A program made the position numbers and the translations under genes. The notes beneath the pieces are model-generated. The model was not told where the DNA came from, ran no database searches, and worked only from the letters and a program-made list of their open reading frames with translations. A stretch of 64,000 nt of DNA. It comes from Brachybacterium huguangmaarense. GTDB lineage: Bacteria > Actinomycetota > Actinomycetes > Actinomycetales > Dermabacteraceae. Of this stretch, positions 5,440 through 64,000 are shown piece by piece; the stretch's first letter is position 1; each line of letters begins with the position of its first letter. The stretch covers positions 1,488,001-1,552,000 of the forward strand of contig NZ_CP107020.1 in NCBI RefSeq assembly GCF_025725725.1, given 5' to 3'.

Positions 5440-5593
5440 GCGCTCACTGTAACGACTCCGGACCCGGCGTCCGCAGGACCCGGGGAACAGCGAAGGGGCC
5501 AGAGGGCCGCGCCGCTCCTGAGCACTCGCGTGACGCACCCCGCCCCTAGGATGGGCGCGTCCGACCCCGGGACATCCCCACGAAGGAGCTGCC

Positions 5594-7228
5594 ATGGACA
5601 CGCGACGCCCCGCCCGACTGGTGACGGCCCTGGCCGCGCTCACCCTGGCCCTGACGGGCTGCAGCATCCTCCCCTTCGGCGGGACCGCGACCTCCCCGAG
5701 CTCCGACTCCTCGGCCTCCGACGGCGGCTCGGGCTCGGGCGGCGATGCCGGCGACGGCAAGCTGCCCGAGATCGGCACCTCGGCGGCGGCCGACCTCGAC
5801 GGCGACCCCGCGACCGACGAGAAGTACAGCTCGTACTACTCCCAGCAGATCGACTGGCAGCCGTGCGAGGACTACACCGGCGCCCGCTGCGGCTCGATCA
5901 CCGTGCCCAAGGCCTGGAACGACCCGTCGAAGGGCGACATCACCCTGCAGATGATCGACGTGCCCGCGACGGGGCAGAAGAAGGGGTCGCTGCTGATGAA
6001 CCCGGGCGGACCCGGCGGCGGCGGCGTCGAGTTCGTGGGCGACTCGGGCACCTCCATCGTGAGCGAGTCCGTGCGCGAGAACTACGACCTGATCGGCTTC
6101 GACCCGCGCGGCGTGGGCACCTCCGACCCGATCAGGTGCCTCGACGACGCCGACACCGACGAGTACCTCGCCGACACCTACGACATGCTCACGCCCGACG
6201 GCCTGTCCCGCGGCAAGGAGTGGATGCAGCGCATCGCCGACGCGTGCGAGCAGAACTCCGGGGACCTGCTGGGCTACATGGACACCGAGTCCGCCGCGCG
6301 CGACATGGACGTGATGCGCTCGGCCGTCGGCTCCGAGAAGCTCGACTACCTCGGCTTCAGCTACGGCACGTACCTGGGCGCCACCTACGCCGACCTCTAC
6401 CCGAGCCGCACCGGCAAGTTCATCCTCGACGGCGCGATCGACCCGACCCTCACGGGTGACGAGATGGTCGCCGGCCAGGCCAAGGGCTTCGAGGACGCCG
6501 TGCACGCCTTCGCCCAGTGGTGCATCGACCAGGGCTCGGACACGTGTCCCCTCAAGGGGACCGTCGACGAGGGCGTCCAGCAGATCCGCGACTTCTTCGC
6601 CGCGACCGACGAGACGCCCGTCGCGACCAACGACTCCGCCCGCCCGCTGACCGGCGCCCTCGCCCGCTCGGGCGTGCTCGTGGGCATGTACAACGACCAG
6701 AACTGGAGCTACGTCGCCCAGGGCCTGCAGGGCGCGATGAACGGCAACGGCTCGCTGCTGCTGTACCTCGCCGACCTGTCGAGCGAGCGCGGCGACGACG
6801 GCCACTACACCGGCAACGGGACCTACTCGATCACCGCCGTGAACTGCCTGGACCACCCGGCCGTCGAGGACGAGACCTGGATGCAGGAGCAGGCGGAGTC
6901 GCTCGCCGAGACCTCCCCGACGTTCGGCGGCTCGATGGGCTTCACCGGCATGGCCTGCGGGCTGTGGCCCGAGGGCCCCGTGCGCAAGCCGGCCGAGATC
7001 CACGCCAAGGGCAGCGACCTGATCGTCGTCATCGGCACCACCGGCGACCCCGCCACCCCGTACCCGTGGGCGCAGGCGCTCGCCAAGCAGCTCGACAACT
7101 CCACGCTCATCACGTGGGAGGGCGAGGGCCACACCGCCTACGGCCGTTCCGGCGGCTGCGTCGAGGACGCCGTCGACCAGTACATCCTGGACGGCACCGC
7201 GCCCGAGAAGGATCTCGTCTGCTCGTGA
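5594..7228 (+). CDS. secreted alpha/beta-hydrolase lipoprotein (tripeptidyl aminopeptidase/SlpD-SlpE family)
   Basis: 544 residues. The signal peptide ends in a lipobox (LALTGC, Cys22) and a Ser/Gly/Asp-rich linker follows. The hydrolase fold has the oxyanion segment MNPGGPGGGGVE, the nucleophile elbow GFSYGTYLG, and a C-terminal TAP-like domain with IGTTGDPATPYPWA (acid) and GEGHTAYG (His). These exported serine peptidases remove short N-terminal peptides from proteins outside the cell. ATG 5594 is preceded by GAAGGAG at good spacing. Flanking genes run separately, so it is probably monocistronic. Confidence 0.88.
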   Translation: MDTRRPARLVTALAALTLALTGCSILPFGGTATSPSSDSSASDGGSGSGGDAGDGKLPEIGTSAAADLDGDPATDEKYSSYYSQQIDWQPCEDYTGARCGSITVPKAWNDPSKGDITLQMIDVPATGQKKGSLLMNPGGPGGGGVEFVGDSGTSIVSESVRENYDLIGFDPRGVGTSDPIRCLDDADTDEYLADTYDMLTPDGLSRGKEWMQRIADACEQNSGDLLGYMDTESAARDMDVMRSAVGSEKLDYLGFSYGTYLGATYADLYPSRTGKFILDGAIDPTLTGDEMVAGQAKGFEDAVHAFAQWCIDQGSDTCPLKGTVDEGVQQIRDFFAATDETPVATNDSARPLTGALARSGVLVGMYNDQNWSYVAQGLQGAMNGNGSLLLYLADLSSERGDDGHYTGNGTYSITAVNCLDHPAVEDETWMQEQAESLAETSPTFGGSMGFTGMACGLWPEGPVRKPAEIHAKGSDLIVVIGTTGDPATPYPWAQALAKQLDNSTLITWEGEGHTAYGRSGGCVEDAVDQYILDGTAPEKDLVCS

Positions 7229-7357
7229 GAGCGGGCGAGGTCCGGGGGGAGCGAGTTCATGGTGGAGCCAGGGGTGACGAGCCCCTCACGCCCCCGCTTT
7301 GCGCCGCAGCCTCGGGTTCTCGTAGAGTGATCCGGTCCGCGCCACGTGCGAGGGCGT

Positions 7358-7430
7358 GCCGCCTTAGCTCAGTCGGCAGAGCGATTCACTCGTAATGAAT
7401 AGGTCTGGGGTTCGATTCCCCAAGGCGGCT
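7358..7430 (+). tRNA. tRNA-Thr (CGT)
   Basis: Plus-strand cloverleaf: acceptor GCCGCCT/AGGCGGC, D-arm GCTCAGTCGGCAGAGC, anticodon loop CTCGTAA (CGT) and T-arm GGGGTTCGATTCCCC. A TAGAGT -10-like element lies about 27 bp upstream. Confidence 0.95.
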
Positions 7431-7439
7431 CCGACTCCA

Positions 7440-7475
7440 CGAAGCCCCGCCGGTCCGATGACCGGCGGGGCTTCG
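7440..7475 (+). terminator. terminator of tRNA-Thr
   Basis: A 15-bp GC-rich stem (CGAAGCCCCGCCGGT at 7440-7454 with 7461-7475) and a 6-nt loop, starting 9 bp after the tRNA. Confidence 0.75.
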
Positions 7476-7538
7476 TGCATGCGGGAAGCACGGCGGGGAC
7501 GATGGGGCCCGCGTGTGGGGAGCCTGCGCGCCGGTGGC

Positions 7539-7689
7539 CCGTGCGTTGGTGGTCTCCCTGTCGGTGGCCGGCCCCGTCGCGGATCGAGATCGCCTTTTCG
7601 GGCGGAATTCTCGCCGAATTCCACCCGAAAAGGCGATCTCGATGGCGCGGTGCCGGACCGACAGACAGGGAGCGCCGGAGAGCGCACGG
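7539..7689. repeat. 151-bp imperfect palindrome with 27-bp near-perfect inner arms
   Basis: The inner arms are 7583-7609 and 7617-7643, paired over 27 bp with one mismatch around a 7-nt loop. Outside them the symmetry continues with gaps: CTCCCTGTC against GACAGACAGGGAG, GGCCGGC against GCCGGACC, and the ends CCGTGCG (7539-7545) against CGCACGG (7683-7689). There is no credible gene here. It could be a MITE/REP-like element or encode a long structured RNA. Confidence 0.65.
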
Positions 7690-7771
7690 ACGCCGCCCGG
7701 ATCGGCGGTCCCGAGCGGCGGGCATCCCCAGTCCGGTGGCGACGTCCGGGCGGCGCGTTAGCGTGAGGGCC

Positions 7772-8662
7772 GTGAACGCCACGCCGCCTTCGGGCTCGGG
7801 AGGACTCCTCGCCGAGCACTGCCTCGCCCTCCTGCGGGCACGTGAGGGAGCCGCGTACGTCCTGGAGCGGCGGCTCGCGGGAGGTCGACAGGGTGGTGCC
7901 TGGCTCGTCCGCGACGCGGAGAAGCGTCCCGCCGTCCTGAAGGCCACGGTGGACCCCGGCCTGCTCGCACGCCGACGAGAGACGTCCGCGCTCGTCCGCG
8001 CACTCGTCGCCCGCGGCTATCCGACGCCCGCCTGGATCCACGACGGCGTCTCCGAGGACGGGGTGGCCTATGTCGTCTCGGAGTACGTCGAGGGCAGCAC
8101 CCCTGCCTGGGCCGAAGTCGACGTGCGGCAGCTCCTCGATGCGATCGAGCTGCAGAAGAGGGTCGCCGCTCCGTCCGCCCAGACCTGGAGCGACTATGCC
8201 CAGCACGTCGCCTCGGACCACTCGCCGACGATGCGCGGCCTCGAGGGGAGAGGGGCCGCCGTCGAGCGGCTGCTCGACAGGGCGAGTTGCGGGCTGCGGT
8301 CTCTCGGCGAGATCGACCTGCCGCGATCCGACGCCGTGCACGGGGATCTCGAACTCGGGAACACGATCAGCGTCGCTGACCGCGTCGTCGTCGTGGACAT
8401 CGACGCGTGCGGACCCGGCACCCGTGCCCTCGACCATGCATGGCTCTACCGGGACGCGGCCCGGCACGGTGCCGCGGACTCCGTCTGCTCCCAGATCCGC
8501 GCGGCCGGGTCGGCTGTCGCCGGGGAGGCCGTCTTCCGCTTCTGCCTCGTCGTCGCGTGCCTCGAGCTCGTCGCCTTCGTGGCCGCACACGGCACGGCCG
8601 CATCCCTGTCCGTCGAGGCCGACCACGCCCGGCGATGCCTGGAGCGCGCGGCTCGGCGGTGA
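7772..8662 (+). CDS. aminoglycoside-phosphotransferase/choline-kinase-like protein
   Basis: 296 residues. The kinase-like fold is recognised by AWLVRD ... AVLKA (nucleotide-loop Lys), VSEYVEG (hinge), AVHGDLELGN (catalytic HGD..N) and VVVDIDACGPG (metal-binding Asp). This family phosphorylates antibiotics or small metabolites; the pocket does not reveal the substrate, and a metabolic or orphan role is as likely as resistance. GTG 7772 lies 7 bp after a TAGCGT -10 element (7759-7764), so it is probably leaderless. GTG 7763 is in frame but overlaps that element. Confidence 0.75.
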   Translation: MNATPPSGSGGLLAEHCLALLRAREGAAYVLERRLAGGRQGGAWLVRDAEKRPAVLKATVDPGLLARRRETSALVRALVARGYPTPAWIHDGVSEDGVAYVVSEYVEGSTPAWAEVDVRQLLDAIELQKRVAAPSAQTWSDYAQHVASDHSPTMRGLEGRGAAVERLLDRASCGLRSLGEIDLPRSDAVHGDLELGNTISVADRVVVVDIDACGPGTRALDHAWLYRDAARHGAADSVCSQIRAAGSAVAGEAVFRFCLVVACLELVAFVAAHGTAASLSVEADHARRCLERAARR

Positions 8663-8718
8663 GCGTCCCGAGCGCGCCGGTCCCGCAGGGCGTGCGACCG
8701 CACGGTCGGACCCGGTCG

Positions 8719-8752
8719 TTTTCTTGACCCAGTCCAGAATGCGCCGTACGGT
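8719..8752 (+). promoter_or_regulatory. furA promoter with FurA-type redox operator
   Basis: TTGACC (8724-8729), a 17-bp spacer and TACGGT (8747-8752) form a near-ideal promoter 8 bp before the furA start. The segment TTCTTGACCCAGTCCAGAAT matches the AT-containing operator that overlaps the -35 of furA-katG promoters in mycobacteria and streptomycetes, so FurA autorepression relieved by peroxide is likely. Confidence 0.7.
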
Positions 8753-8759
8753 GGAGGGC

Positions 8760-9242
8760 ATGATGACACCACGTCAGGACACGGCATCGGCGGAGACCAC
8801 TCCGTTCGAGGCCGACCTGCGTGCCGCGGGTCTGCGGGTGACCGCCCCGCGACTGGCCACGCTCGCCGTCATCGCCGAGCGCCAGCACTCCGACGCCGAC
8901 GCGATCGCGACCGCCGTGCGCGACCGGCTGGGCACCGTGTCCAAGCAGGCCGTGTACGACGTGCTCAACGCGCTCACCGCCGCGGGCCTGGTGCGGCGGA
9001 TCTCCCTCGACGAACGGCGCGCCCGCTTCGAGGTGCACCGCCACGACAACCACCACCACCTGATCTGCCGCTCGTGCGGCCGGATCGAGGACGTGCCGTG
9101 CGTGGTCGGCGTGGCCCCGTGCCTGAGCCTGCCGGACGACCGCGGCTTCACCGTCGAGGAGGCCGACGTCGTCTACCGCGGCCTGTGCGCCGAGTGCAGC
9201 GCCGCGGCCGCCGCGCGAGCAGGAGACCCCGCGGCGTCCTGA
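8760..9242 (+). CDS. furA: Fur-family peroxide-responsive repressor (FurA/PerR-like)
   Basis: 160 residues. The winged-helix domain (about 15-85) has the recognition stretch [20 protein letters not shown]. The dimerisation domain has the [16 protein letters not shown] metal region (His-rich 94-100, Cys103/Cys106) and a second CAEC pair at 143-146, which makes a structural zinc site likely. The gene sits 119 bp before the catalase gene in the same direction. That layout matches the furA-catalase pairs of actinobacteria, where FurA represses both and is inactivated by peroxide. A Met-Met start begins at 8760; 8763 is equally possible. Confidence 0.9.
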
Positions 9243-9361: not shown

Positions 9362-10927
9362 ATGACCCAGAAGCAGGACCACGAGTACCCGGGCTTCGAC
9401 CCGGCCAAGCCCTCGACCACCGAGTCCGGCGCCCGCCGCGAGTCCGACGCCAACTCCCTGTCCGTCGGCCCCGACGGACCGCTGATGCTGCACGACGTCG
9501 CCCTCGTCGAGAAGCTCGCCCGCTTCGACCGCGAGCGCGTCCCGGAGCGCAGCCCCCACGCCAAGGGCTCGGGCGCGTTCGGCGAGTTCGAGGTCACCCA
9601 CGACGTCAGCCAGTACACCAGGGCGAAGTTCCTGCAGCCCGGCGCCACCACGCCGATGCTCGCGCGCTTCTCCACGGTCGCCGGCGAGCTCGGCTCGCCC
9701 GACACCTGGCGCGACGTCCGCGGCTTCGCGCTGAAGTTCTACACCGAGGACGGGAACTTCGACATGGTCGGCAACAATACGCCGGTCTTCTTCGTCCGCG
9801 ACCCCATGAAGTTCCCCGACTTCATCCACTCCCAGAAGCGCATGCCCGACTCCGGCCTGCGCAGCAACAACATGCAGTGGGACTTCTGGAGCCTCTCCCC
9901 GGAGAGTGCCCACCAGGTGGCCTACCTCATGGGCGACCGCGGCCTGCCCAAGTCCTGGCGCCACATGAACGGCTACTCCTCCCACACCTACCTGTGGGTC
10001 AACGAGGCGGGGGAGAGGTTCTGGGTCCAGTACCACTTCCACACCGACCAGGGCGTCGAGAACCTCACCAACGAGGAGGCCGGCAAGCTCGCGGGCGAGG
10101 ACGCCGACTACCACCGCCGCGACCTGTTCGACGCGATCGAGCGGGGCGACTTCCCGTCCTGGACCCTGAGCGTGCAGATCATGCCGTACGAGGACGCCAA
10201 GACCTACCGGTTCAACCCCTTCGACCTCACCAAGACGTGGTCGCACAAGGACTACCCGCTGCACGAGGTCGGGCGCTTCACCCTCAACCAGAACCCGTCC
10301 AACCACTTCGCGCAGATCGAGCAGGCCGCCTTCAGCCCGTCCAACACGGTGCCGGGCACGGGCGTCTCGCCCGACAAGATGCTGCTGGGCCGCGTGTTCT
10401 CCTACCCGGACGCGCACCGCAACCGCATCGGCGTGAACTTCAACCAGCTGCCGGTCAACGCGCCGCTGACGCCCACCAACTCCTACGACAAGGAGGGGCA
10501 GATGCAGTTCCACCACACGGGCAACGCGCCCGTGTACGCCCCCAACTCGTACGGGCGCGCCTACCAGGACGCCCAGGGGCCGGTGGACAACGGCTGGGAG
10601 GCCGACGGCGCGCTCGTCCGCGCCGCGTACACCCTGCACGCCGAGGACGACGACTTCGGCCAGGCGCACACGCTCGTGCGCGACGTGTACTCCGACGAGG
10701 AGCGCGAGCGGCTCGTCGAGACCGTCGCCGGGACGCTGATCCCCGACGTCGAGGAGCCGGTCCTCTCGAACGTCTTCGCCTACTGGCGTCACATCGACCA
10801 GGAGGTCGGCGACCGCATCGAGGCCGCGTACCACGCCGCGAAGGGCGATCAGGTGCCCGGCGGCGACCCCAAGGACGGCCAGCCCGACGCCGTGCTCGGC
10901 GAGGCCCGCACGAACGCCGGCAGCTGA
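9362..10927 (+). CDS. katA: monofunctional haem catalase
   Basis: 521 residues, the usual length for a small-subunit catalase. It degrades hydrogen peroxide in the cytosol. Visible features are the distal His66 in [10 protein letters not shown], Asn138/139 in [10 protein letters not shown], and the proximal Tyr348 in [18 protein letters not shown]-site-like residues follow the small-subunit clade. GAGGAATCAGC precedes ATG 9362. Cotranscription with, or repression by, furA just upstream is likely. A strong terminator follows at 10976. Confidence 0.96.
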
Positions 10928-42933: not shown

Positions 42934-42967
42934 GGCGGACTTTTAATCCGCGGATTAAAAGTCCGCC
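42934..42967. repeat. 34-bp perfect palindrome: left half-site of tRNA-Lys facing itself
   Basis: The arm GGCGGACTTTTAATCCG (42934-42950) is followed directly by its exact complement (42951-42967). The arm equals the anticodon-arm side of tRNA-Lys up to CCG|CGG. A normal site would continue into the T-arm half, which is instead found at 47287-47348. Confidence 0.9.
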
Positions 42968-43066
42968 AGAGCATCGGCCGCAGAGCGTGTACAAGCAGGT
43001 CAGAGGGCTGGTACTGCTACCCGAAGCGCGACGGACACCATCGCGTTGCTGTCAGCGTTGCTGTCA
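42968..43066 (-). repeat. right-end sequence of module B (inverted)
   Basis: On the minus strand this reads as two TGACAGCAACG copies, CGATGGTGTCCGTC, then CTGACCTGCTTG and GATGCTCTGGCGG leading into the half-site. It is the counterpart of 42834-42933. Confidence 0.7.
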
Positions 43067-43148
43067 AGAGGTGTTCGAGACGAGTCGGCATCTGTTCCTT
43101 GGGGATGGTGTCTCCAGAAGCCCTAGTCACACGTGCTCTCGGCTTTCC

Positions 43149-43580
43149 TCAACCTTGGACTGGAATGTCGAGTGGCTCGCGGGACAGCAAGCTGCCGATG
43201 AGCTCCTCGATGCGGGTGCGGATCTCATCGCGCACCGGGCGGACTTCCGCGACGCCCTTGCCAGCTGGGTCCTCGAGCTTCCAGTCCTCGTACCGCTTGC
43301 CGGGGTAGTAAGGGCAGGCGTCGCCGCATCCCATGGTGATGACCACGTCGGAGGCCTGGACGGATTCGGGAGTGAGGATCATCGGGGTCTGGTGGGAGAT
43401 GTCGATGCCGACCTCCGCCATGGCCTCCACCGCTGCGGGGTTGATCGAGTCGGCGGGCGCTGACCCGGCGGAGTGGACCTCGATGCGGTCTCCGGCGAGC
43501 TCCCGCAGCCACCCGGCTGCCATCTGGGATCGACCGGCGTTGCGGACACAGACGAACAAGACGCTGGGGCGAACGGTCAG
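43149..43580 (-). CDS. arsC: arsenate reductase, low-molecular-weight phosphatase type
   Basis: About 143 residues. The phosphatase loop is CVRNAGRSQMA (Cys-x5-Arg), and DPAGKGVAEVRPVRDEI carries the general-acid region. It reduces arsenate to arsenite for export by Acr3. Start choice is hard: TTG 43559 lacks a ribosome site and would remove the first beta strand. CTG 43580 has GGAG at 6 bp and restores the PSVLFVC strand, so I used it although CTG starts are rare. The gene lies 33 bp after arsR on the same strand, divergent from acr3. Confidence 0.85.
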   Translation of the reverse strand: MTVRPSVLFVCVRNAGRSQMAAGWLRELAGDRIEVHSAGSAPADSINPAAVEAMAEVGIDISHQTPMILTPESVQASDVVITMGCGDACPYYPGKRYEDWKLEDPAGKGVAEVRPVRDEIRTRIEELIGSLLSREPLDIPVQG

Positions 43581-43613
43581 GGGAGTCTCCAGACAGGGGC
43601 GAGAGGGAGGGGT

Positions 43614-43979
43614 TCAGGCGATGTCGAGGAACGCACGGAGCTCGGCGAAGGCTGACGGGACGACGGAGTAGTGGGCCCAGCGGCCCTTCTGCTCGCGCGT
43701 GAGCAGGCCGGCGTCGACGAGCTTCTTCATGTGGTGGCTCACGGTGGGCTGACTGATGCCGAGCGGCTCGGTGAGATCGCATGCGCAGACCGACTCGCAG
43801 CCCTGGGCGGCGACGTGGGACAGGAGCCGGAGGCGCGTGGGGTCGGACAGCGCCTTCAGTAGAGAGGCGATCCGCTCGGCGTCGACAGTGTCGACAGGGC
43901 CTGCGGACAGCGTGCAGCACTCGCCAGAGCCGGTCCTCGCCGCGAATCCGGTGGCTGTGGCGTCGGTCGTCGTGGTCAT
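43614..43979 (-). CDS. arsR: ArsR/SmtB-family arsenite-responsive repressor
   Basis: 121 residues. The winged helix is LLKALSDPTRLRLLSHV ... GISQPTVSHHMKKLVDAGLLTREQKGRWAHYSV. Likely As(III) ligands are Cys61, Cys65 and Cys67 (GCESVCACDL) at the alpha3 site, as in classical ArsR, with an extra Cys21-Cys22 pair in the N-terminus. It would repress the divergent ars promoters through the operator at 43991. Confidence 0.93.
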   Translation of the reverse strand: MTTTTDATATGFAARTGSGECCTLSAGPVDTVDAERIASLLKALSDPTRLRLLSHVAAQGCESVCACDLTEPLGISQPTVSHHMKKLVDAGLLTREQKGRWAHYSVVPSAFAELRAFLDIA

Positions 43980-43990
43980 GCCCTCACCTT

Positions 43991-44010
43991 ACATTGACAG
44001 TTATCGATGT
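43991..44010. promoter_or_regulatory. ArsR operator in the divergent ars promoter
   Basis: ACATTGACAGTTATCGATGT, an imperfect inverted repeat (ACATYGAYA arms), 12 bp from the arsR start and 51 bp from the acr3 start. The size and position fit an ArsR box controlling both directions. Confidence 0.65.
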
Positions 44011-44060
44011 GGACCATAGCGTACTCACCGATAACCGTCGACGGAAGGTGCCGAGGCCTG

Positions 44061-45152
44061 ATGAGTACGACCGCCAAGGATGTGGAGCAGCCGCGCGTGA
44101 TGAAGGAGATGTCCTTTCTCGACCGCTGGCTCCCGGTATGGATTCTGGCCGCCATGGCCGTGGGGCTCCTGCTGGGGCGGTTCGTTCCCGGCCTGAACAC
44201 CGCGCTGGAGGCGGTGAAGATCGGGTCCGTGTCCCTGCCCATCGCGTTCGGGCTGCTGGTGATGATGTACCCGGTCTTGGCGAAGGTCCGCTACGACGAG
44301 ACCCGGCGAATCGGAGCTGACCGACGCCTGTTGGTGACTTCGTTGGTGCTGAACTGGATCGTCGGGCCGGCCCTCATGTTCGGCCTCGCGTGGATCTTCC
44401 TTGCCGACCTGCCGGAGTACCGGACCGGCCTGATCATCGTCGGTCTCGCGCGCTGCATCGCGATGGTGCTCATCTGGAACGACCTCGCCTGCGGTGACCG
44501 CGAAGCTGCCGCCGTGCTGGTCGCGATCAACTCCGTCTTCCAGGTGATCGCCTTCGGTGCCCTGGGCTGGTTCTACCTCCAGGCGCTGCCGTCGTGGCTG
44601 GGACTGCCGACCACGTCGGCCGAGTTCTCGATCGGCGCGATCGTCCTCAGCGTGCTGATCTTCCTCGGGATCCCTCTGGTCGCCGGGTTCCTGACCCGCA
44701 TCCTCGGGGAGCGGGCGAAGGGCAGGACCTGGTACGAGGAGCGGTTCCTCCCGAAGATCGGCCCGTGGGCGCTGTACGGGCTACTGTTCACCATCGTGCT
44801 GCTGTTCGCCCTCCAGGGCGACGCGATCCTCTCCGCCCCGGGCGACGTGGCCCGCATCGCCCTGCCGCTGCTGGTCTACTTCGTGGTCATGTTCCTGGGG
44901 TCCTTCCTGCTCGGACGGGCGATCGGCCTGAATTACGCGAAGTCCACGACCGTCGCGTTCACCGCCTCGGGCAACAACTTCGAGCTCGCCATCGCCGTCG
45001 CCATCGGCACCTTCGGCGTCACTTCCGGCCAGGCCCTCGCCGGTGTCGTCGGCCCCCTGATCGAGGTCCCGGTCCTCGTTGCCCTCGTCTACGTCGCTCT
45101 CGCGATGGGCCGCCGGCTCTTCCCCGGCGACGTGACCGTTCCCACCCGATGA
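44061..45152 (+). CDS. acr3: arsenite efflux permease Acr3
   Basis: 363 residues, ten membrane helices. Signature stretches are FLDRWLPVWILAAMAVGLLLGR, GLARCIAMVLIWNDLACGD (with the essential Cys in helix 4) and TVAFTASGNNFELAIAVAIG. Exports As(OH)3 using the proton gradient. ATG 44061 follows AAGGTGCCGAGGCCTG. The stop overlaps a potential upstream start of the next gene (ATGA), so the rest of the operon is probably coupled. Confidence 0.95.
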   Translation: MSTTAKDVEQPRVMKEMSFLDRWLPVWILAAMAVGLLLGRFVPGLNTALEAVKIGSVSLPIAFGLLVMMYPVLAKVRYDETRRIGADRRLLVTSLVLNWIVGPALMFGLAWIFLADLPEYRTGLIIVGLARCIAMVLIWNDLACGDREAAAVLVAINSVFQVIAFGALGWFYLQALPSWLGLPTTSAEFSIGAIVLSVLIFLGIPLVAGFLTRILGERAKGRTWYEERFLPKIGPWALYGLLFTIVLLFALQGDAILSAPGDVARIALPLLVYFVVMFLGSFLLGRAIGLNYAKSTTVAFTASGNNFELAIAVAIGTFGVTSGQALAGVVGPLIEVPVLVALVYVALAMGRRLFPGDVTVPTR

Positions 45153-45175
45153 ACCAGCAGAGAGTTCGAGTCACC

Positions 45176-45604
45176 ATGGCCGCGAAACGCCCCGCAGTCC
45201 TGTTCGTGTGCGTGAAGAACGGCGGCAAGTCCCAGATGGCGGCCGCCCTTATGTGCCATCACGCCGGAGATGCCGTCGAGGTGCACTCCGCCGGCACCCG
45301 CCCCGGCGCCACCATCAATGCCCAGTCCGCTGAGGCGATCGCCGAGGTCGGCGCGGACATGTCCTCTGCCGTCCCGCAGCCGGTGACCCCCGAGCTGCTG
45401 CGCAGCGTCGATCACGTGATCGTCATCGGCGGCGAAGCCGTCATTGAACCCGTCGAGGGAATGACCGCGCCGGTCACCACCTGGCACACCGATGAGCCCT
45501 CCCAGCGGGGCATCGAGGGGATGGAGCGCATGCGCCTGGTGCGAGACGATATCGACACCCGCGTCCGCGCACTCATGAACGACCTCACCCCTACCGCGAA
45601 CTGA
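45176..45604 (+). CDS. second arsenate reductase/low-molecular-weight phosphatase family protein
   Basis: 142 residues. The loop CVKNGGKSQMA has Cys-x5-Lys in place of Cys-x5-Arg, as in a branch of actinobacterial ArsC proteins that use mycothiol (Cgr/ArsC2-like). VTTWHTDEPSQRGIEGMERMRLVRDDI forms the acid region. It probably reduces arsenate or acts on a mycothiol-arsenate adduct. ATG 45149 overlaps the acr3 stop and would add nine residues; ATG 45176 has a GAG at 5 bp. It differs clearly from the arsC at 43149. Confidence 0.85.
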   Translation: MAAKRPAVLFVCVKNGGKSQMAAALMCHHAGDAVEVHSAGTRPGATINAQSAEAIAEVGADMSSAVPQPVTPELLRSVDHVIVIGGEAVIEPVEGMTAPVTTWHTDEPSQRGIEGMERMRLVRDDIDTRVRALMNDLTPTAN

Positions 45605-45630
45605 GCGCACCCGCAGCAGGTAGACCCATC

Positions 45631-46950
45631 ATGCTGACCACCGCAACGAGCTCGCATCCCGTCGTCGTCATCGGGGCTGGCCCCATCGGCCTGGCCGCTG
45701 CCGCCCACCTCTCCGATCGCGGCCTGCCGTTCCTCGTCCTCGAGGCGGGACCAGCAGCAGGAGCAGCGATCGCCGGGTGGGGGCACACCCGGCTCTTCTC
45801 CCCGTGGCAGTACAACCTCGATGCCGCCGCGCGGCGTCTCCTCGAGGCCGCCTGCTGGACCGCTCCCGACGCTGACGCCCTGCCGACCGGTCACGAGCTG
45901 CGCGAGCAGTACCTCGAGCCCCTCGCCCAGCTTCCGCAGCTCGCCGAGTCGATCCGCTACGACGCACGCGTCACTGCTGCCTTCCGAGCCGGCATGGACA
46001 GGACGCGTACCGCACACCGAGAGGAGACCCCCTTCCTCATCCGCATCGAGAACGCTGACGGACACAGCGAAGACGTCCTAGCCTCCGCCGTCATCGATGC
46101 CTCCGGCACCTGGTCCACCCCTAACCCGCTGGGCCAGGCCGGTCTCCTCGCCCCCGGTGAACGACAGGCCTTCTCTGCGGGCCACATCACGCCGCCGCTG
46201 CCCGATGTGCTGGGCCGTGATCGCGATCGCGTCGCCGGCAAGCGCGTCATGGTCACCGGCGCTGGCCACTCGGCGGCGAATACCCTGCTGGACCTCGCGG
46301 AACTGGATTCGACCACCGCGATCACCTGGGCCGTCCGCACCGCGGACCTCACCCGCGTTTACGGCGGCGGGGAGCAGGACGACCTCGCGGCCCGAGGAGC
46401 GCTCGGCTCTCGGTTGCGCCAGCTGGTCGACTCCGGCCGAATCGAAGTCCTCACCTCGTTCACCATCACCCGCTTCTCCGGCGAGGACGCACTGACCGTT
46501 CATGCTGCGACCCCGGACGGAGAGCGCGAGGTCACGGTGGACGTGCTGGTGCCTGCGACCGGGTTCCGTCCTGATCTGGGGATGCTCTCCGAGCTCAGGC
46601 TGAACCTGGACCCGGCGGTCGAGGCCCCCGCACAGCTGGGACCGCTCATCGACCCCGAGTTCCACTCCTGCGGCTCTGTCGGGCCTCACGGGGAAAGAGT
46701 CCTCGCCCACCCCGAGAAGAACTTCAACATCGTCGGCATGAAGAGCTACGGACGCACCCCCACCTTCCTCATGGTCACCGGCTATGAGCAGGTCCGCTCC
46801 ATCGCAGCGTCTCTCGCCGGCGACCGCGACGCAGCAGACGCGGTCCACCTCGAACTGCCCGAGACCGGCGTGTGCACCACCGACCTCGGCGGCAGTTGCG
46901 ATGCGCCCACGAAGGCCACCGACGTCTGCGGAGCGTCCGCACCCAGCTAG
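45631..46950 (+). CDS. FAD-dependent NAD(P)H oxidoreductase of the ars operon (ArsO/flavin-monooxygenase-like)
   Basis: 439 residues. The first dinucleotide motif is VVIGAGPIGLAAAAHL (residues 12-27); a second is VMVTGAGHSAANTLLDLA (about 206-223). ATGFRPDLGML and MKSYGRTPTFLMVTGYEQVRSI complete a pattern seen in flavin monooxygenases often found in actinobacterial ars operons. The last 30 residues have three Cys (GVCTTDLGGSCDAPTKATDVCG) that could bind As(III) or act in redox. Its substrate is unknown; organoarsenical or thiol chemistry is possible. Confidence 0.8.
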   Translation: MLTTATSSHPVVVIGAGPIGLAAAAHLSDRGLPFLVLEAGPAAGAAIAGWGHTRLFSPWQYNLDAAARRLLEAACWTAPDADALPTGHELREQYLEPLAQLPQLAESIRYDARVTAAFRAGMDRTRTAHREETPFLIRIENADGHSEDVLASAVIDASGTWSTPNPLGQAGLLAPGERQAFSAGHITPPLPDVLGRDRDRVAGKRVMVTGAGHSAANTLLDLAELDSTTAITWAVRTADLTRVYGGGEQDDLAARGALGSRLRQLVDSGRIEVLTSFTITRFSGEDALTVHAATPDGEREVTVDVLVPATGFRPDLGMLSELRLNLDPAVEAPAQLGPLIDPEFHSCGSVGPHGERVLAHPEKNFNIVGMKSYGRTPTFLMVTGYEQVRSIAASLAGDRDAADAVHLELPETGVCTTDLGGSCDAPTKATDVCGASAPS

Positions 46951-47286
46951 GAATCGTGCTGCACCGGACCACAACCCAGCGCGATTGCTTGCGGTCTGCA
47001 AAAACCCAACAGGTAACCAGATTCCGAGCGCGGGCTCAAACTTCGCCGTAGAGCAACTGACCGATGCCCCACAGAGAAAATTCGATCCCGAAGATTGCCG
47101 TGGGGTGGAATCAGCCCCGACCCCGGACTGCCGTTCCCGCGAGACTCTCATCGCGGATATCTCTCTCGTCCCGCGAACGCGGCCGGCAGGCGTGCTCCCC
47201 CGTCAAGCGAGCTGGAATCGCTACCACGTTGCTGTCAAACCACTCCGCAGGACACGATGGTGTCGCCGAAAATGAGCTCTGACCAG
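46951..47286 (-). repeat. non-coding left end of module B (inverted)
   Basis: 336 bp without a credible gene. On the minus strand it reads CTGGTCAG at the half-site edge and then GTTTGACAGCAACG (47225-47240), the module left-end layout seen at 39590-39685 and 47349-47461. Confidence 0.55.
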
Positions 47287-47348
47287 TGGGCCCGGAGGGG
47301 ATCGAACCCTCGACCCGCGGGTCGAGGGTTCGATCCCCTCCGGGCCCA
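47287..47348. repeat. 62-bp perfect palindrome: right half-site of tRNA-Lys facing itself
   Basis: The right arm is the T-arm and acceptor end of a tRNA-Lys (CGGGTCGAGGGTTCGATCCC... to GGGCCCA, 47318-47348), and the left arm (47287-47317) is its exact complement. The centre is CCCG|CGGG. Compared with chromosomal tRNA-Lys the T-stem carries a compensated pair change (GAGGG/CCCTC for GTGGG/CCCAC), so the half-site came from another tRNA-Lys gene. Confidence 0.9.
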
Positions 47349-57965: not shown

Positions 57966-58903
57966 GGCTCTTCACAGATAACGGTGTAGTTCGGTTCTGA
58001 ATCCTCCGGTGTCGAGTAGGGCGCGGATGACGTAGTGAGCGAGATTGCGGAAGCCAAGCGCGGTGCCACGGAGGTGCTCGAGTCGGCCATTGATCGCTTC
58101 GGTGGGGCCGTTGCTGGTGCCGGGGTGGTCGAAGTAGGCCAGCACGTCGAGGGCCCGTCGTTTCAGGGTTCGACCGAGGGTGATCAGCTCGGTGAGCTGC
58201 GTGGGCACTCCGTGGGTGAGGTCGTCGATCACGGCTTGTAGAGCCTTCTTCCCACTCGCGCGGTCGGCGTGGCGGTAGGCGGCGACGATGCGCTGGTAGA
58301 TGCCCCAGGTCGCTTCGACCTCGACGTGCTCGTCGCTGGCGAACACGGCTTTCAAGCGGGTGATCTGCTTGTCGGTGAGCAGGTCAGCGCCGGTATGCAA
58401 CACGCGCCGGATCCCGTAGAGCGGATCCCCAGATCGGCCCCGATGGGCGAGCGTGGCTTGTTGGACGCGCTGGCGGCACTGATCGATCTTCTCGCCGGCC
58501 AGGGCGACGACGTGGAAGGGGTCCATCACCGCGGTCGCCTCGGGCAGGTCTTCGGCGGTCGCGGTCTTGAAGCCGGAGAACCCGTCCATCGCGACGACCT
58601 CGACCCCGTCCCGGAACTGGGCGGTCTGGCCCTCGAGCCAGGTCTTGAACACTCTCTTCGAACGCCCCGGGACCATGTCCAGGAGCCTGGAGGAGCCGCT
58701 GCCGTCGCGGATCGGAGTCAGGTCGATGATGACGGTGACGTACTTGCTGCCCCGACGGGTGTGGGACCACACGTGCTCGTCCACTCCGACGACGCGCACC
58801 CCGTCGAGGCGGGTGGGATCGTTGATCAGCAGCTGCTGGCCGGTGGCCAGGATCGCATCGTTGGCGGTGTTCCAGGCGACTGCGAGCCCGGCGGCGATCC
58901 GGG

Positions 58904-60337
58904 GGGCCTGTCAAGTTGTCTGTGTAAGCGGGGTGGTCATAGGTAGGGGTTGATCCGGTCGGGGTAAGCGGCGGCGAGCTGGGCGAGGGCCTGCTTCCAG
59001 TTGGTGACGACCTGGCCCTCGACGAGTCGGCCCTGAGCCTTCCGCTCGCTGGCGGGCTTTCCGCGGTCTCTCGCGCGCTCGGCAGCACGCTTGTCTTCGA
59101 TGTTGCAGATCGCGAGCCAGAGCAGTTTCACCGCCGCCTCGGTCGAGGGGAAGTGGCCGCGGTTCTTGGTCACCTTCCGCAGCTGGAAGTTCAGCGATTC
59201 GATGCTGTTGGTCGTGTAGATGACCTTGCGCAACATCGGCGGGAACTGCAGGAACGGAATGAACCGCTCCCACGAGTTCGCCCAGGTCGTAGCAGCGGAG
59301 GGGTACTTCTTCCCGAGCTCGGAGGCCTCGAACTCTGCCAGTGCCTTCCGGGCGATCTCCTCGTTGGGGGCGGTGTAGATCGGCTTGAGCGCCTTGGCGA
59401 CCTTCTTGCGGTCGGAGTAGGCCACGAACCGCATCGCGGCCCGGATCAGGTGGACGACGCAGGTTTGGACCATCGAGTCCGGCCAGGTCGCCTCGATCGC
59501 CTCTGGCAGGCCCTTGAGGCCGTCGCAGCAGACGATCAGCACGTCCCGCACGCCCCGGTTGGCCAGGTCCGCGCAGACGTGGGCCCAAAACGCCGAGCCC
59601 TCGGTGTCCTGGACCCAGATCCCCAGCACGTGCTTGATCCCCTCGAGGTCCACGCCGACGGCGATATAGGCGGCACGGTTGATGACCTGGCTGTTCTCTC
59701 GGATCTTGATCCGGATCGCGTCGAGGTAGATCACCGGATAGAACTCCTCCAGCGGCCGTGACTGCCAGGCCAGGACCTCTTCGCTGACGGCGTCGGTGAT
59801 GTTGGAGATCGTCTCGTGCGACAGATCCGTGCCGAGCGTGGAGGCCAGATGGTGCTGGATGTCGCGGATCGTCATCCCGCCGGCATAGAGGCTGATGATC
59901 ATGTCATCAAGGCCTCCCAGCCGCCGCTGACCCTTGGGGACCAGGCGCGGCGTGAACGACCCACCCCGATCCCGGGGGACGTCGAGCTGGATCGGTCCAA
60001 CTTCGGATTCGACCTTCTTCGACGTGGTCCCGTTGCGGGAGTTGGAGTGCTTCGACGCCTCGCTCGAGCCCTTCTCATAGCCCAGATGGCTGGTCAGCTC
60101 GGCCTGCAGTCCGCGTTCGAGTGCTGCTTTGACCAGCGCGGGTACGAACCCTCCATCGCCGGTCAGTTCGACCTTCCCGGCATCGATCTGCTCGAAGAGG
60201 GCATCAAGCTGCCCAGAGGCCTTCAGCTGCTCGACCAGGTCCTGGCCCGATGGCTCGGCCTGCTTCTTCTCGTCCGTCATGGTCATGATTCTTACCGTTC
60301 CTCTCGGTACGGCTTACACAGACCATCTGACACGCCC
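58904..60337 (-). mobile_element. IS256-family element inserted in ISL3
   Basis: 1,434 bp with imperfect terminal repeats (GGGCCTGTCAAGTTGTCTGT and GGGCGTGTCAGATGGTCTGT read inward) and a perfect 8-bp target duplication GATCCGGG at 58896-58903 and 60338-60345. The intact duplication suggests a relatively recent insertion. Confidence 0.9.
58937..60286 (-). CDS. IS256-family (mutator) transposase
   Basis: 449 residues, intact. Mutator-type DDE core: YPVIYLDAIRIKIRENSQV (first Asp), VLIVCCDGLKGLPEAIEATWP (second Asp) and the region around WERFIPFLQFPPMLRKVIYTTNSIESLNFQLRK (Glu). The N-terminus has AALERGLQAELTSHLGYEKG and NSRNGTTSKKV. It probably remains able to move the element by cut-and-paste or circle intermediates. 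Confidence 0.93.
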   Translation of the reverse strand: MTMTDEKKQAEPSGQDLVEQLKASGQLDALFEQIDAGKVELTGDGGFVPALVKAALERGLQAELTSHLGYEKGSSEASKHSNSRNGTTSKKVESEVGPIQLDVPRDRGGSFTPRLVPKGQRRLGGLDDMIISLYAGGMTIRDIQHHLASTLGTDLSHETISNITDAVSEEVLAWQSRPLEEFYPVIYLDAIRIKIRENSQVINRAAYIAVGVDLEGIKHVLGIWVQDTEGSAFWAHVCADLANRGVRDVLIVCCDGLKGLPEAIEATWPDSMVQTCVVHLIRAAMRFVAYSDRKKVAKALKPIYTAPNEEIARKALAEFEASELGKKYPSAATTWANSWERFIPFLQFPPMLRKVIYTTNSIESLNFQLRKVTKNRGHFPSTEAAVKLLWLAICNIEDKRAAERARDRGKPASERKAQGRLVEGQVVTNWKQALAQLAAAYPDRINPYL

Positions 60338-60831
60338 GATCCGGGCGACGGACAAGCGATCGATGACCACGCCCTTGAGCGCCCACAGCGCGGCGTGCCG
60401 GGAGAGGACAGCGCGGGGCTCGGCCGCGGTCGAGGTGTCCTGACGCCACACGCGGCGGCAGTCCGGGCATCGGTAACGACGCACTCTGACCTGCAGCGTC
60501 GTGGGACGCCAACCCACCGGGACGTGGGCGAGACGCCGGACCACCGTGCCCCGGGAGACGCCTTGCTGGCCGCAACCGTGGCACCAGTTGTCCGGTTCAA
60601 GCACGCGACACTCCAACACCGATCGATGCGGCTCGATCAGCTGCCCCGTCACGGTCAGGCCCAGCCGGTCAACCTGGCTGAACGTATCGAGATCGGGCGC
60701 GGCGAAGGTAGCGTTGAGCACGTCGAGGTCTTCCAGATGGCGAGCGTAGGAACTTCCATCATCGGGAGACCTCGACGTCTATCCCGGCACCGCCGCGCCG
60801 CCAGCTCCTACACCCTCATCTGTGAAGAGCC

Positions 60832-61231
60832 AGTCTTCCACGACGGCATCCGCAGCGCGTGCGACGGCGGCAAGTCGGCCTTGGCGTAACGCGTCCACAG
60901 GCGACTCGTCGTCGAGCCACGGGTTGGCCCCCGTGAACCATGTGCGTGCGACTGCCTCGCCCTCGGCCTCAGAGACCGTGCACCAGGCGGAGTAGGCAGC
61001 GCGAAGACGTCGTTCGCTTGCTGGACCCGGGGCTGCTGATCCCGCTACCCACGCACGAGCATGCTGAGAACCTCTGGATCCGGCTAGGGCCGAAACCAGC
61101 GTGGGTCCAAGACGCGCGTTGAGCCTCCTGGTGCACTCGCGGAGCTCGATGCTCAGGCCGGAGGGCTCAAGAGTCGAACTCGGCTCCCCGCCATGTCTGG
61201 TGAACGTTTGACCTGCCTCAGAGGACCCCAC
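60832..61231 (-). pseudogene. Xre/MbcA/ParS-like antitoxin-type protein, C-terminus removed by ISL3
   Basis: GTG 61231 with an ideal AAGGAG at 7 bp. LRAAYSAWCTVSEAEGEAVARTWFTGANPWLDDESPVDALRQGRLAAVARAADAV resembles the helical HTH plus toxin-binding domain of Xre/MbcA/ParS antitoxins, whose partners are RES-domain NAD-cleaving toxins. The gene reads into the ISL3 end at residue 133 or so. No RES toxin gene is visible on either side, so the downstream partner may have been deleted with the C-terminus. Confidence 0.6.
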
Positions 61232-61723
61232 TGATGTGCTCCTTCCAGAGGACCTTGGTCAAGGAGGCTACCTCGAAGGCTTCCGGGCGCGCCGTCGGGC
61301 AGAAGCGAAGGCGCTTCATCTGGGCGGAGCGCCCCTCGCCGGCCGCCGCCAGGGGGTAGATATCGGACTTGCTGCCGTGAAGGTTCCCGACACACGAGCC
61401 CCGTCAGCTCCGTCCCACTACCATCAACCGCATAGCTGCACCATCGCAGTGGTGTCAGAAGCTGACCTCGGGAGTTCCTGCCGGACGTCAGGGCCCGAGG
61501 TCAGCGCCCGCAATTCCACTGGAGGTCTCGACGTCGAGTACTGGCGCGTGAGAACTTTCCCTACTCCTTCAAGGGGCGGCTCCGCCGCCCGCCGTGAGTG
61601 GCACATGATCGCTTCCGGTCCTCGCTTCGCTGCGGGCCTCAGCGCTCACCGTGCCACTCACTCCGCAAGCCGCACCTGAAATTCGCTTGGTAAAACTGTA
61701 ACTATTGACCCAAGGAAAGTCGA
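61232..61723. other. gene-poor stretch with an inverted repeat
   Basis: About 490 bp without a convincing gene. It contains a GGGCGGC/GCCGCCC hairpin near 61575 and an 11-bp inverted repeat (GTGAGTGGCAC at 61594-61604 and its complement at 61651-61661) enclosing 46 bp. A 34-codon minus-strand frame (MKRLRFCPTARPEAF...) overlaps the antitoxin start and is not convincing. Confidence 0.5.
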
Positions 61724-61894
61724 TTGGCCCAGCACAAACGCAATCTCCAGTTATCATTCGACTATGTAATCTGCGAGCGCTGCGATGAACAGCGGCTTCT
61801 CGCCCGCCCGTGCATCAACTGCGGGAGAGGGCCGGAGCCTGATGAATGTCAGCAGGATCTCTCGCGGAGAATCGATCTTGTGGACGACTTTTGA
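61724..61894 (+). CDS. 56-residue zinc-ribbon-like protein, in frame with the next gene
   Basis: TTG 61724 has AAGGA at 8 bp and gives MAQHKRNLQLSFDYVICERC..., with two CxxC knuckles (CERC and CINC) 14 residues apart, and a fifth Cys. This is a likely zinc ribbon. It ends with ...RIDLVDDF at a TGA (61892-61894). The reading frame then continues open, without another stop, into the gene at 61955. It may be the N-terminal domain of that protein cut off by a nonsense change, or a separate small protein. Confidence 0.45.
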   Translation: MAQHKRNLQLSFDYVICERCDEQRLLARPCINCGRGPEPDECQQDLSRRIDLVDDF

Positions 61895-61954
61895 GCGACC
61901 CGGAGCTCCCCGACTTCGCCATCCGGTGCCGATCTGAGCCAGCTCGAACGACAA

Positions 61955-63559
61955 GTGGACGAAACAACTCGAACAGTTGAGCGCGCGTTAGCTAAAGCGT
62001 CCCGAGAAGGCGAGGCGCCGGGAGCTCTTCTGGCCGCTTTCTATCAGCTCGACAGCCTTGTGCTTTCGTGGCAATCGCCGCAGCCTCGACCAAATAGAAA
62101 TCTAGGAAAGCTCATCGGTCGCGCACTCGGGCAGTTGCGGGCTGGGTACGAGAAGTTCCTTGATGCGATGTGTGCCCCAGACATGAACGAGGCACAAAGG
62201 TTCGAAGCTGAAGGCAACGCAGAGATTCGGTTGGGCGAACGCCATCTTGCGCAAATCGAGGAGTTGATCTGGGCGGACGAGGTTTCCAAAGACTCAGACC
62301 CCCTCCAGGTGGCTAACAGTGCCGGCCGGGCTATTCGCGACAGGCTAGGCAACCCGGCCACAATCGAGGAGCTGGAGCTGGAGCTTGAGCTCAGGCGTAT
62401 CGAGGGTGCGAGTTCGGTAAGTGGAGGATCAGGCATTGAGTATCAAATGATGCGCATTATGGCGCTCACGCAATTTGACTTTGATCGCTTCACCGGTATT
62501 CGGGACCGAGTTGCGGATGTGCTCGGGAAGTCCAGTGCCTTCTTGGAGCTGGGAAAGGGTGAGGCGTGGCGGCGTCAACATGCAAGGGCGCAGGCAAACC
62601 TTTCGGGCTCACTTGGTGCGGCAAATCTTGTCGTGAACTCTGAAGACTCGGGGGAGCTGGACATTGTCAACAGTGCGGTTCAATGTGTTGCAACTCTTCG
62701 AGATGGCGTATTACGACACGCAGTTGCAACTGTCGTGGCTCTCGACCCGGGCGAGTATGATTCGTTCGTAAGTAAGAGTGGCGGACATTCTCTCAAGGCT
62801 GCCGATAGGCGTTTTCCAGAGATCCCGATATCTGAGGGGCTCGAGTCGAGTTTTCGTAACGCCGGGGGGCATGGGGGAGTGGACGACCTGAACGGCGACG
62901 AGGTGACTATTCAGGGGAAAACATTCTCTTCTGAGCAGTTCACCGATGTGTATCTGGCTTACCTTGAAACTGTTCTTTCTGTTTGGGGCGGCTTGAATCT
63001 CGCGCTCGACCGGTTTGGGGGTGAGTTCAGGATGCTGGACTACATTTCACCCAGGGATGTGAAAACAGCGATCACTGCCGGGGTGGGAATCTTGGGCGTG
63101 GAGTGCGCCTCGATTGAGATGCGCGGAGATTGGCTCAGTTTGAAGGTCAAAAGTTCTGAACACGATTGGCTGCGAGTCGCGGCGTTCATTAGTGGAATTG
63201 AACTAGTGGAGGCGGAGTCGTTGCTAGTTGAGTTTCTGGACGGCGGAGACGTTCGTCATTTCACGGCTAGTCTGAGTGTGTTTAGGGAGGCGGACTATGG
63301 CGCGGCGGCCATGAGTGATGAAGAGAATGCACTTCTGGTTGCTGGAGTGCTTGCGGGGTGCGCACTGGACGGGGTCTCGCTATGGCATAGGCAAGATTGG
63401 TCTGCCGTCTTGTCGAAATTGACCTCGCGAGATGGTGTTGAGGATTATAAGGCTTGGATTGCTCGACTTAAGGCCTTCAGGCGTCTAGCGATCGAAGTTG
63501 GTGATGATAATGCTGCGGCGTCATGCCTGTCTGCAATTCGGAGTTTTCGGATGGCGTGA
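61955..63559 (+). CDS. low-GC hypothetical protein with a HEPN-like RX4H motif
   Basis: 534 residues from GTG 61955, which lacks a ribosome site. The frame continues upstream without a stop to the TGA at 61892, and then into a zinc-ribbon frame. The protein is mainly helical. At 297-306 it has LESSFRNAGGHGG, where Arg301-x4-His306 matches the catalytic RX4-6H pattern of HEPN RNases. The following EVTIQGKTFSSEQFTDVYLAYLETVLSVW resembles the helix after that motif in Abi-type proteins. GC is well below the genome average. A defence RNase is my best guess, not a family match. Confidence 0.5.
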   Translation: MDETTRTVERALAKASREGEAPGALLAAFYQLDSLVLSWQSPQPRPNRNLGKLIGRALGQLRAGYEKFLDAMCAPDMNEAQRFEAEGNAEIRLGERHLAQIEELIWADEVSKDSDPLQVANSAGRAIRDRLGNPATIEELELELELRRIEGASSVSGGSGIEYQMMRIMALTQFDFDRFTGIRDRVADVLGKSSAFLELGKGEAWRRQHARAQANLSGSLGAANLVVNSEDSGELDIVNSAVQCVATLRDGVLRHAVATVVALDPGEYDSFVSKSGGHSLKAADRRFPEIPISEGLESSFRNAGGHGGVDDLNGDEVTIQGKTFSSEQFTDVYLAYLETVLSVWGGLNLALDRFGGEFRMLDYISPRDVKTAITAGVGILGVECASIEMRGDWLSLKVKSSEHDWLRVAAFISGIELVEAESLLVEFLDGGDVRHFTASLSVFREADYGAAAMSDEENALLVAGVLAGCALDGVSLWHRQDWSAVLSKLTSRDGVEDYKAWIARLKAFRRLAIEVGDDNAAASCLSAIRSFRMA

Positions 63560-63601
63560 GTGTGGTTCGGGCGTAATTGCCATTGATGCGCCCCCAAATC
63601 C

Positions 63602-63691
63602 CTGACAGCAACGATGACAGCAACGCGATGGTGTCCGTCGGCCTCGAATCTGCTGTACGAGCTCGCTGACCTGGTAGAACCTGGTCGGCCA
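63602..63691 (+). repeat. right-end sequence of module C
   Basis: CTGACAGCAACGATGACAGC, then CGATGGTGTCCGTCGG and GCTGACCTGGTAGAACCTGG, similar to 42834-42933. The tRNA-Lys-like half-site expected next is not present because ISL3 begins at 63704. Confidence 0.65.
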
Positions 63692-63703
63692 CCCGGCGAT
63701 GTC

Positions 63704-64000
63704 GGCTCTTCACGAACGAGGGTGTAGTCGGTTGAGCGCGTCGGTGGCCGGGTAGGGGTCGAGGTCTCCCGGATGATGGAAGTTCTTCACGCTCGCCATC
63801 CCGAAAGACCTCGACGTGCTCCACCCTACTTTCGCGACCCCTGACCTGACCACGTTCTGCCGCCTCGACGAGCTCGGCCTCGTCGCCGTCGGCCAGCTGA
63901 TCGAGCCGGATCGGGCCACGATCGAATGCCGCGTCGTCGAGGACGACCCGTGGTGTCGGAAGTGCGGTGTCGAGGGCGTGCCGCGGGACACGGTCACGCG
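63704..64000 (+). mobile_element. ISL3-family element, copy 3 (runs off the right edge)
   Basis: The terminal repeat GGCTCTTCACGAACGAGGGT.. at 63704 is followed by the 5' part of a transposase gene. The repeat is closer to copy 2 than to copy 1. Confidence 0.75.
63816..64000 (+). CDS. ISL3 transposase, N-terminal part
   Basis: 61 codons from GTG 63816: LHPTFATPDLTTFCRLDELG ... ECRVVEDDPWCRKCGVEGVPRDTV, the N-terminal zinc-binding region of ISL3 transposases. It resembles the N-terminus of copy 2 (LNATFAAPDLDTFSQVDRLG) and is cut by the window edge. Confidence 0.8.
   Translation, partial: MLHPTFATPDLTTFCRLDELGLVAVGQLIEPDRATIECRVVEDDPWCRKCGVEGVPRDTVT

Follow-up and report, generated by a model that had tools for sequence, protein, structure and literature searches.

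A single TGA codon interrupts a gene for a zinc-ribbon, HEPN-like protein in Brachybacterium huguangmaarense, probably a recently inactivated mobile allele

In the window (the whole stretch of 64,000 nucleotides from Brachybacterium huguangmaarense that was analysed), a zinc-ribbon frame and a HEPN-like frame are separated by one in-frame TGA, and we consider it likely that they form an allele, inactivated recently, of a HEPN ribonuclease that is mobile, is encoded by a single gene and would probably act in abortive phage defence. Comparison with relatives in other genomes shows the ancestral product to have been one protein of ~608 residues, with an N-terminal zinc ribbon, a long middle predicted to be helical, an R-x4-H domain (residues 280-430) and a C-terminal part. 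The features of the gene were assigned as follows.

61712-61719, + strand: Shine-Dalgarno-like sequence AAGGAAAG, preceding TTG 61724; the same in both other Brachybacterium copies
61724-61894, + strand: N-terminal fragment, a zinc-ribbon open reading frame with TTG start, 56 codons and TGA end
61772-61822, + strand: zinc ribbon C-x2-C-x9-C-x2-C (residues 17-33)
61892-61894, + strand: premature in-frame TGA; CGA (Arg) in Brachybacterium sp. EE-P12 and B. epidermidis
61895-63559, + strand: rest of the broken frame, with the helical middle, the HEPN-like domain and the C-terminal part
62561-63019, + strand: HEPN-like domain, approximate limits, assigned from predicted helices, motif and conservation
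62702-62704, + strand: conserved acidic residue, Asp, here in a D-x3-R setting (Asp or Glu in 14 of 14 aligned rows)
62855-62872, + strand: R-N-x3-H motif (R 62855-62857, H 62870-62872), of which R and H are invariant

The frame opens at TTG 61724 behind a good ribosome site, runs through two CxxC motifs, stops at TGA 61892-61894 and is then open, with zero further stops, to TGA 63557-63559. The listed open reading frame of 534 residues, which begins at GTG 61955, is the 3' portion of the remainder, and a Shine-Dalgarno sequence was absent from the 25 bases preceding this GTG. The GC content of the gene is 55.9%, low against the 69.5% of the window and the 72% of its first 40 kb, and the R-x4-H at residues 301-306 of the 534-residue frame is encoded with CGT at its arginine and CAT at its histidine. 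The original prediction, made from the letters of the window, had claimed the start with its ribosome site, the stop and reopened frame, the poor start of the longer part, the low GC content and the motif, and each of these was borne out. The openness of the frame is by itself weak proof, because at the composition of the gene a frame would stay open by chance over 20 codons with a probability of 43% and over 56 codons with a probability of 9%; this was set aside, since the homologues settle the question. Note that another TTG, at 61891-61893, lies across the premature TGA in a different frame and begins a short frame (LSDPELPDFAIRC), of which there is no sign of use.

Homologues were searched in 148 genomes of relatives, 395 of the class, 396 of the order, 396 of the phylum and 222 of one family (the draws overlap), and plasmids were searched in addition to the genome draws. 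Besides two near-copies in Brachybacterium, twelve full-length homologues were obtained from other actinobacteria, with ~17-30% identity (L024-L031, the Cryobacterium plasmid copy L036, and L048-L050; L030 is the homologue of genome G108 first seen as L004, and L031 that of G196 first seen as L009). The homologues have ~610-680 residues, and each of the twelve is one open frame with the zinc ribbon first and R-x4-H ~365 residues further on. In the alignment of all 14 full-length rows (A6: the twelve homologues and the two near-copies), the invariant columns were M1, C17, C20, R24, C33, R49, R122, P123, R376, H381, E413, G430, G506 and A587. These rows support the earlier proposal of one ancestral zinc-ribbon and HEPN-like protein split by a nonsense change; homologues free of the ribbon, which had been named as evidence that would speak against it, numbered none among the 14.

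The distribution is patchy (10 of the 396 genomes of the order, with the window's own genome and partial matches included). In L032 (G737:C21), at 1205-2101, the homologue is cut after ~240 residues and its tail resembles an ISL3 transposase by eye, and in G672 (L033) the homologue is reduced to the zinc ribbon; such cut copies suggest that the gene may often be lost. The match in G1300 was marginal and covered 87 positions. The Brachybacterium protein had no match in the plasmid and phage collections, a single distant copy on a plasmid turned up with the G108 homologue (L004) as the query, and no relative was seen in the viral contigs scanned. Searches of Pfam, PADLOC, NCBIfam and PHROGs gave sub-threshold or scattered matches only, none of them significant; in PADLOC-DB 2.0.0 no member of alignment A2 had a match at E values up to 1, and the matches to Pfam zf-Tnp_2 and to NCBIfam were dismissed as chance. 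The protein family looks new, being without a Pfam, NCBIfam, PHROGs or PADLOC model. HEPN effectors and pairings of a zinc ribbon with HEPN are already known (PMC3710099), and the novelty lies within the HEPN kind.

The two CxxC knuckles of the ribbon are well kept: C17, C20 and C33 are present in 14 of 14 rows and C30 in 13, the ribbon of the remaining row being aligned with a gap. A sequence search of the PDB with the profile gave a weak match (E 0.022) to the zinc ribbons of the type of ribosomal protein bL32, the other match being a designed coiled coil. By analogy with such ribbons, that of the present family would bind zinc.

The defining mark of HEPN domains is an R-x4-6-H that terminates helix 3 and has a polar residue (mostly N, D or H) next to its arginine; an acid further upstream in helix 2 (E-x3-[KR]) is often present, and there are inserts that separate helices 2 and 3; in Csx1 a beta-hairpin stands directly past the motif (PMC3710099). 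In the present family R376 and H381 are invariant in all 14 rows, always with the x4 spacing, and H381, five residues past this invariant arginine, is the sole invariant histidine of the alignment. The residue after R376 is N, D or H in 13 of the 14 rows and K in one. Position 325, which is 51 residues upstream of R376 and within predicted helix 2, is D or E in every row, its [ED]-x3-[KR] setting being found in part of the family only. The structural model of residues 265-434, low in confidence (pLDDT 55), has helices at 278-297, 308-337 (containing the acid 325), 367-378 and 401-428, with an insert of two short helices between helices 2 and 3; R376 lies in the last turn-and-a-half of helix 3 (367-378), H381 in the loop after it, and a beta-hairpin between the motif and helix 401-428. 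At this pLDDT of 55, the modelled layout is consistent with that described for HEPN and Csx1 (PMC3710099). Fold searches with the model of the HEPN region by Foldseek and VIA-align gave no significant match, and the HEPN toxin 7ae6, at rank 14 with E 4.7, was discarded as meaningless. The AlphaFold model of the whole protein, computed without a real alignment (pLDDT 41), was unusable.

At the level of profiles, weak matches to the Pfam HEPN family Hypoth_Ymh (PF09509) were obtained for two members (E 0.037 and 0.15) and cover the R-x4-H; the best score was 14.3 bits against a curated cut-off of 25 bits, and the filing of the protein under this family was rejected. The hhalign comparison with Ymh set motif on motif with a score of 20.3 (20 column-shuffled controls reached at most 15.6; probability ~1-3%), and comparisons with the DUF4145 and Abi_C profiles, with only 6 and 4 sequences, gave no match. 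Since no profile or fold match was significant, the HEPN membership rests on the signature, and the support for a HEPN-like domain is good, not decisive. The invariant R-x4-H, with its polar residue and upstream acid, speaks for the earlier HEPN reading, and the model of low confidence agrees with it; a significant likeness of profile or fold to HEPN families was not obtained.

Several known systems resemble the family in part. With Ymh it shares R-[N]-x3-H at a helix end (predicted for the present family), by a local, motif-on-motif profile alignment; however, the overall similarity is non-significant, and the present family has a predicted beta-hairpin past the motif, a zinc ribbon and a long middle predicted to be helical. 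The Csx1/Csm6 effectors have in common with it R-x4-6-H and, as predicted for the present family, a beta-hairpin after the motif and a large insert between helices 2 and 3 (PMC3710099), whereas here no CARF was found by Pfam and no CRISPR proteins were seen among the neighbours examined. Zinc ribbons accompany HEPN in the DUF4145 fusions, Npun_R5629, Plim_2023 and the vertebrate Cxorf38 (PMC3710099), the same pairing, likened here by name only; the DUF4145 profile did not match this family. The HEPN effectors of abortive infection that consist of one protein (AbiJ, AbiU2 and AbiD/F, and DS-11 CBS-HEPN of PMC13092281) have the same one-gene layout in a mobile or defence-island setting and the same predicted HEPN nuclease beside a separate sensor region. 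No PADLOC model matches here, however, and the anti-phage action of the present family is putative.

In an intact Brachybacterium copy (L034), the gene lies ~2.3-6.5 kb from genes for FtsK/SpoIIIE, RepSA and a tyrosine integrase, and the gene order of L035 is, by sequence, as in L034. RepSA, FtsK/SpoIIIE and a tyrosine integrase form the core of actinomycete integrative and conjugative elements. The G108 homologue adjoins relaxase, TraG and DUF4913 genes, the Cryobacterium plasmid copy (L036) stands between TraM-recognition/DUF4913 genes and MobF, and directly upstream there is an integrase, by Pfam, in L066 (around L048) and an integrase-like sequence in L067. Defence genes, type II and IIG restriction-modification among them, are near other copies, in a small set chosen by eye and with no background rate to compare: L024 has an EcoRI-type methylase and a GmrSD/HNH nuclease gene in its vicinity, L025 is one gene away from an MmeI-type IIG restriction enzyme, and L036 adjoins a PDC-S02 nuclease (candidate defence); in L027 and L029 no defence gene was recognised nearby. 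From this gene context, the role of a phage-defence effector is plausible. The gene between the homologue and the restriction enzyme in L025 encodes a DUF4238 protein (7554-8579). By the homologue in L029 there are two big adjoining genes (4045-8867; 1043 and 561 residues) with no Pfam or PADLOC match, possibly undescribed genes of the island.

As proposed here by analogy with the HEPN families, the R-x4-H domain would dimerise and cut RNA without a metal, and the zinc ribbon and the helical middle would detect a signal of infection or serve to bind RNA or the ribosome. Phage infection would then lead to activation, to a stop of translation and to growth arrest (abortive infection), by which the population and the carrying element would be protected. 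We put forward, tentatively and as a possibility somewhat short of even, the wider proposal that the family comprises undescribed anti-phage effectors, each encoded by one gene on actinobacterial integrative and conjugative elements, and that their N-terminal bL32-like ribbon, on sensing a cue from phage or ribosome, licenses the HEPN ribonuclease, the window holding a natural loss-of-sensor allele. In this host group phage defences have been studied less than in E. coli; the present family is defined and uncatalogued, with a predicted catalytic pair, R376/H381, open to testing, and the broken allele together with the intact, near-identical copies of sister species makes a natural negative control for function.

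The HEPN ribonuclease could instead be an addiction toxin of the element (toxin-antitoxin or post-segregational killing) and not a phage-triggered effector, which we estimate to be unlikely, though it agrees with the riding of the gene on mobile elements, with an HTH-M78 gene that adjoins one copy (L028), and with the fact that many HEPN proteins serve as the toxin in two-gene modules (PMC3710099). The homologues examined showed no conserved partner gene at their side, and the family thus looks like a one-gene system. The proteins, at ~610-680 residues, are also far above typical HepT-type toxins, which are much smaller. The reading as a phage-triggered HEPN effector further competes with the case, quite improbable in our view, of a helical zinc-ribbon protein of the element that serves regulation, transfer or maintenance and in which R-x4-H is coincidental or structural. 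For such a protein speak the non-significant profile and fold matches and the adjoining transfer or integration genes of several homologues; however, these transfer-gene neighbours vary between loci, some copies lie outside transfer modules, and the only invariant histidine falls five residues past an invariant arginine, with the right next residue, upstream acid and predicted position.

The origin of the stop was judged from the near-copies of Brachybacterium sp. EE-P12 (L005) and B. epidermidis (L006), which are 98-99% identical in protein to the window gene. Both have CGA, a sense codon, in place of the TGA, share the TTG start and the ribosome site of the window gene, and encode 608 residues in one continuous frame. 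The simplest reading is that codon 57, right after the ribbon, was turned into TGA by a single C-to-T change in the lineage of the window. The change would be recent, since no other decay was seen downstream of the TGA. Relative to the near-copies, the window copy has gained or lost two codons in frame and carries a few substitutions. A comparison for relaxed selection counted, past the TGA, 3 nonsynonymous and 3 synonymous differences specific to the window, which are uninformative on selection. Because the two near-copies have CGA and one frame and the twelve further homologues have single frames, what the window holds is one gene in a recently broken allele rather than two genes, and programmed readthrough is improbable; among the fates that the original prediction had left side by side (broken, expressed as two parts, read through), the broken gene is the best supported. 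No start is apparent for the predicted catalytic remainder, and the strain's copy is therefore probably dead or almost dead; the good ribosome site of the ribbon peptide could still support its synthesis. As a mutation the stop is unremarkable, a recent loss of a costly mobile gene.

It seems very unlikely that an active enzyme is still made, whole by readthrough of the TGA or in two parts by a downstream restart. The ribbon frame retains its good ribosome site, the sequence after the TGA is intact without a second stop, and the two-codon difference in length is in frame; a very recent mutation, however, would leave the sequence equally intact, all other full-length homologues have one unbroken frame, and for a restart there are GTG 61955, which has no ribosome site, and the stop-overlapping TTG, which is in another frame. 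A sequencing or assembly error at the TGA, with the gene intact in the strain, is highly improbable: although the difference from the two near-identical copies is a single base, G000 is a near-complete assembly of 2 contigs (99.99% completeness), and further differences set the window copy apart from both relatives, so that it is truly diverged.

The broken allele lies in a fragment of element DNA bounded by insertion sequences.

60832-63695, + strand: 2.86-kb segment common to the integrative elements of two other Brachybacterium species (98.7-99.3%)
57972-60721, - strand: ISL3-type transposase gene, interrupted; left boundary of the fragment
58937-60286: Mutator (IS256-like) transposase inside the ISL3-type gene, an insertion within an insertion
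63816-64000, + strand: start of an intact ISL3-type transposase that runs beyond the window; right boundary of the fragment

On these sequence grounds, the window gene is a cargo remnant of a Brachybacterium integrative element, the frame of which was lost as well. Elsewhere in the window, 4.4 kb at 42948-47320 are 95% identical, in the opposite orientation, to L005 6816-11182; this is the DNA just past the gene in EE-P12, and its window counterpart is at least 13 kb from the gene. Just past the right end of the window (L023, C1:1546000-1562000), two direct copies of an ISL3-type element at 5701-6000 and 10527-10826, intact and with transposases of 435 residues, flank the gene of a cadmium-resistance transporter (Cad) and a resolvase, and together these are possibly a composite transposon.
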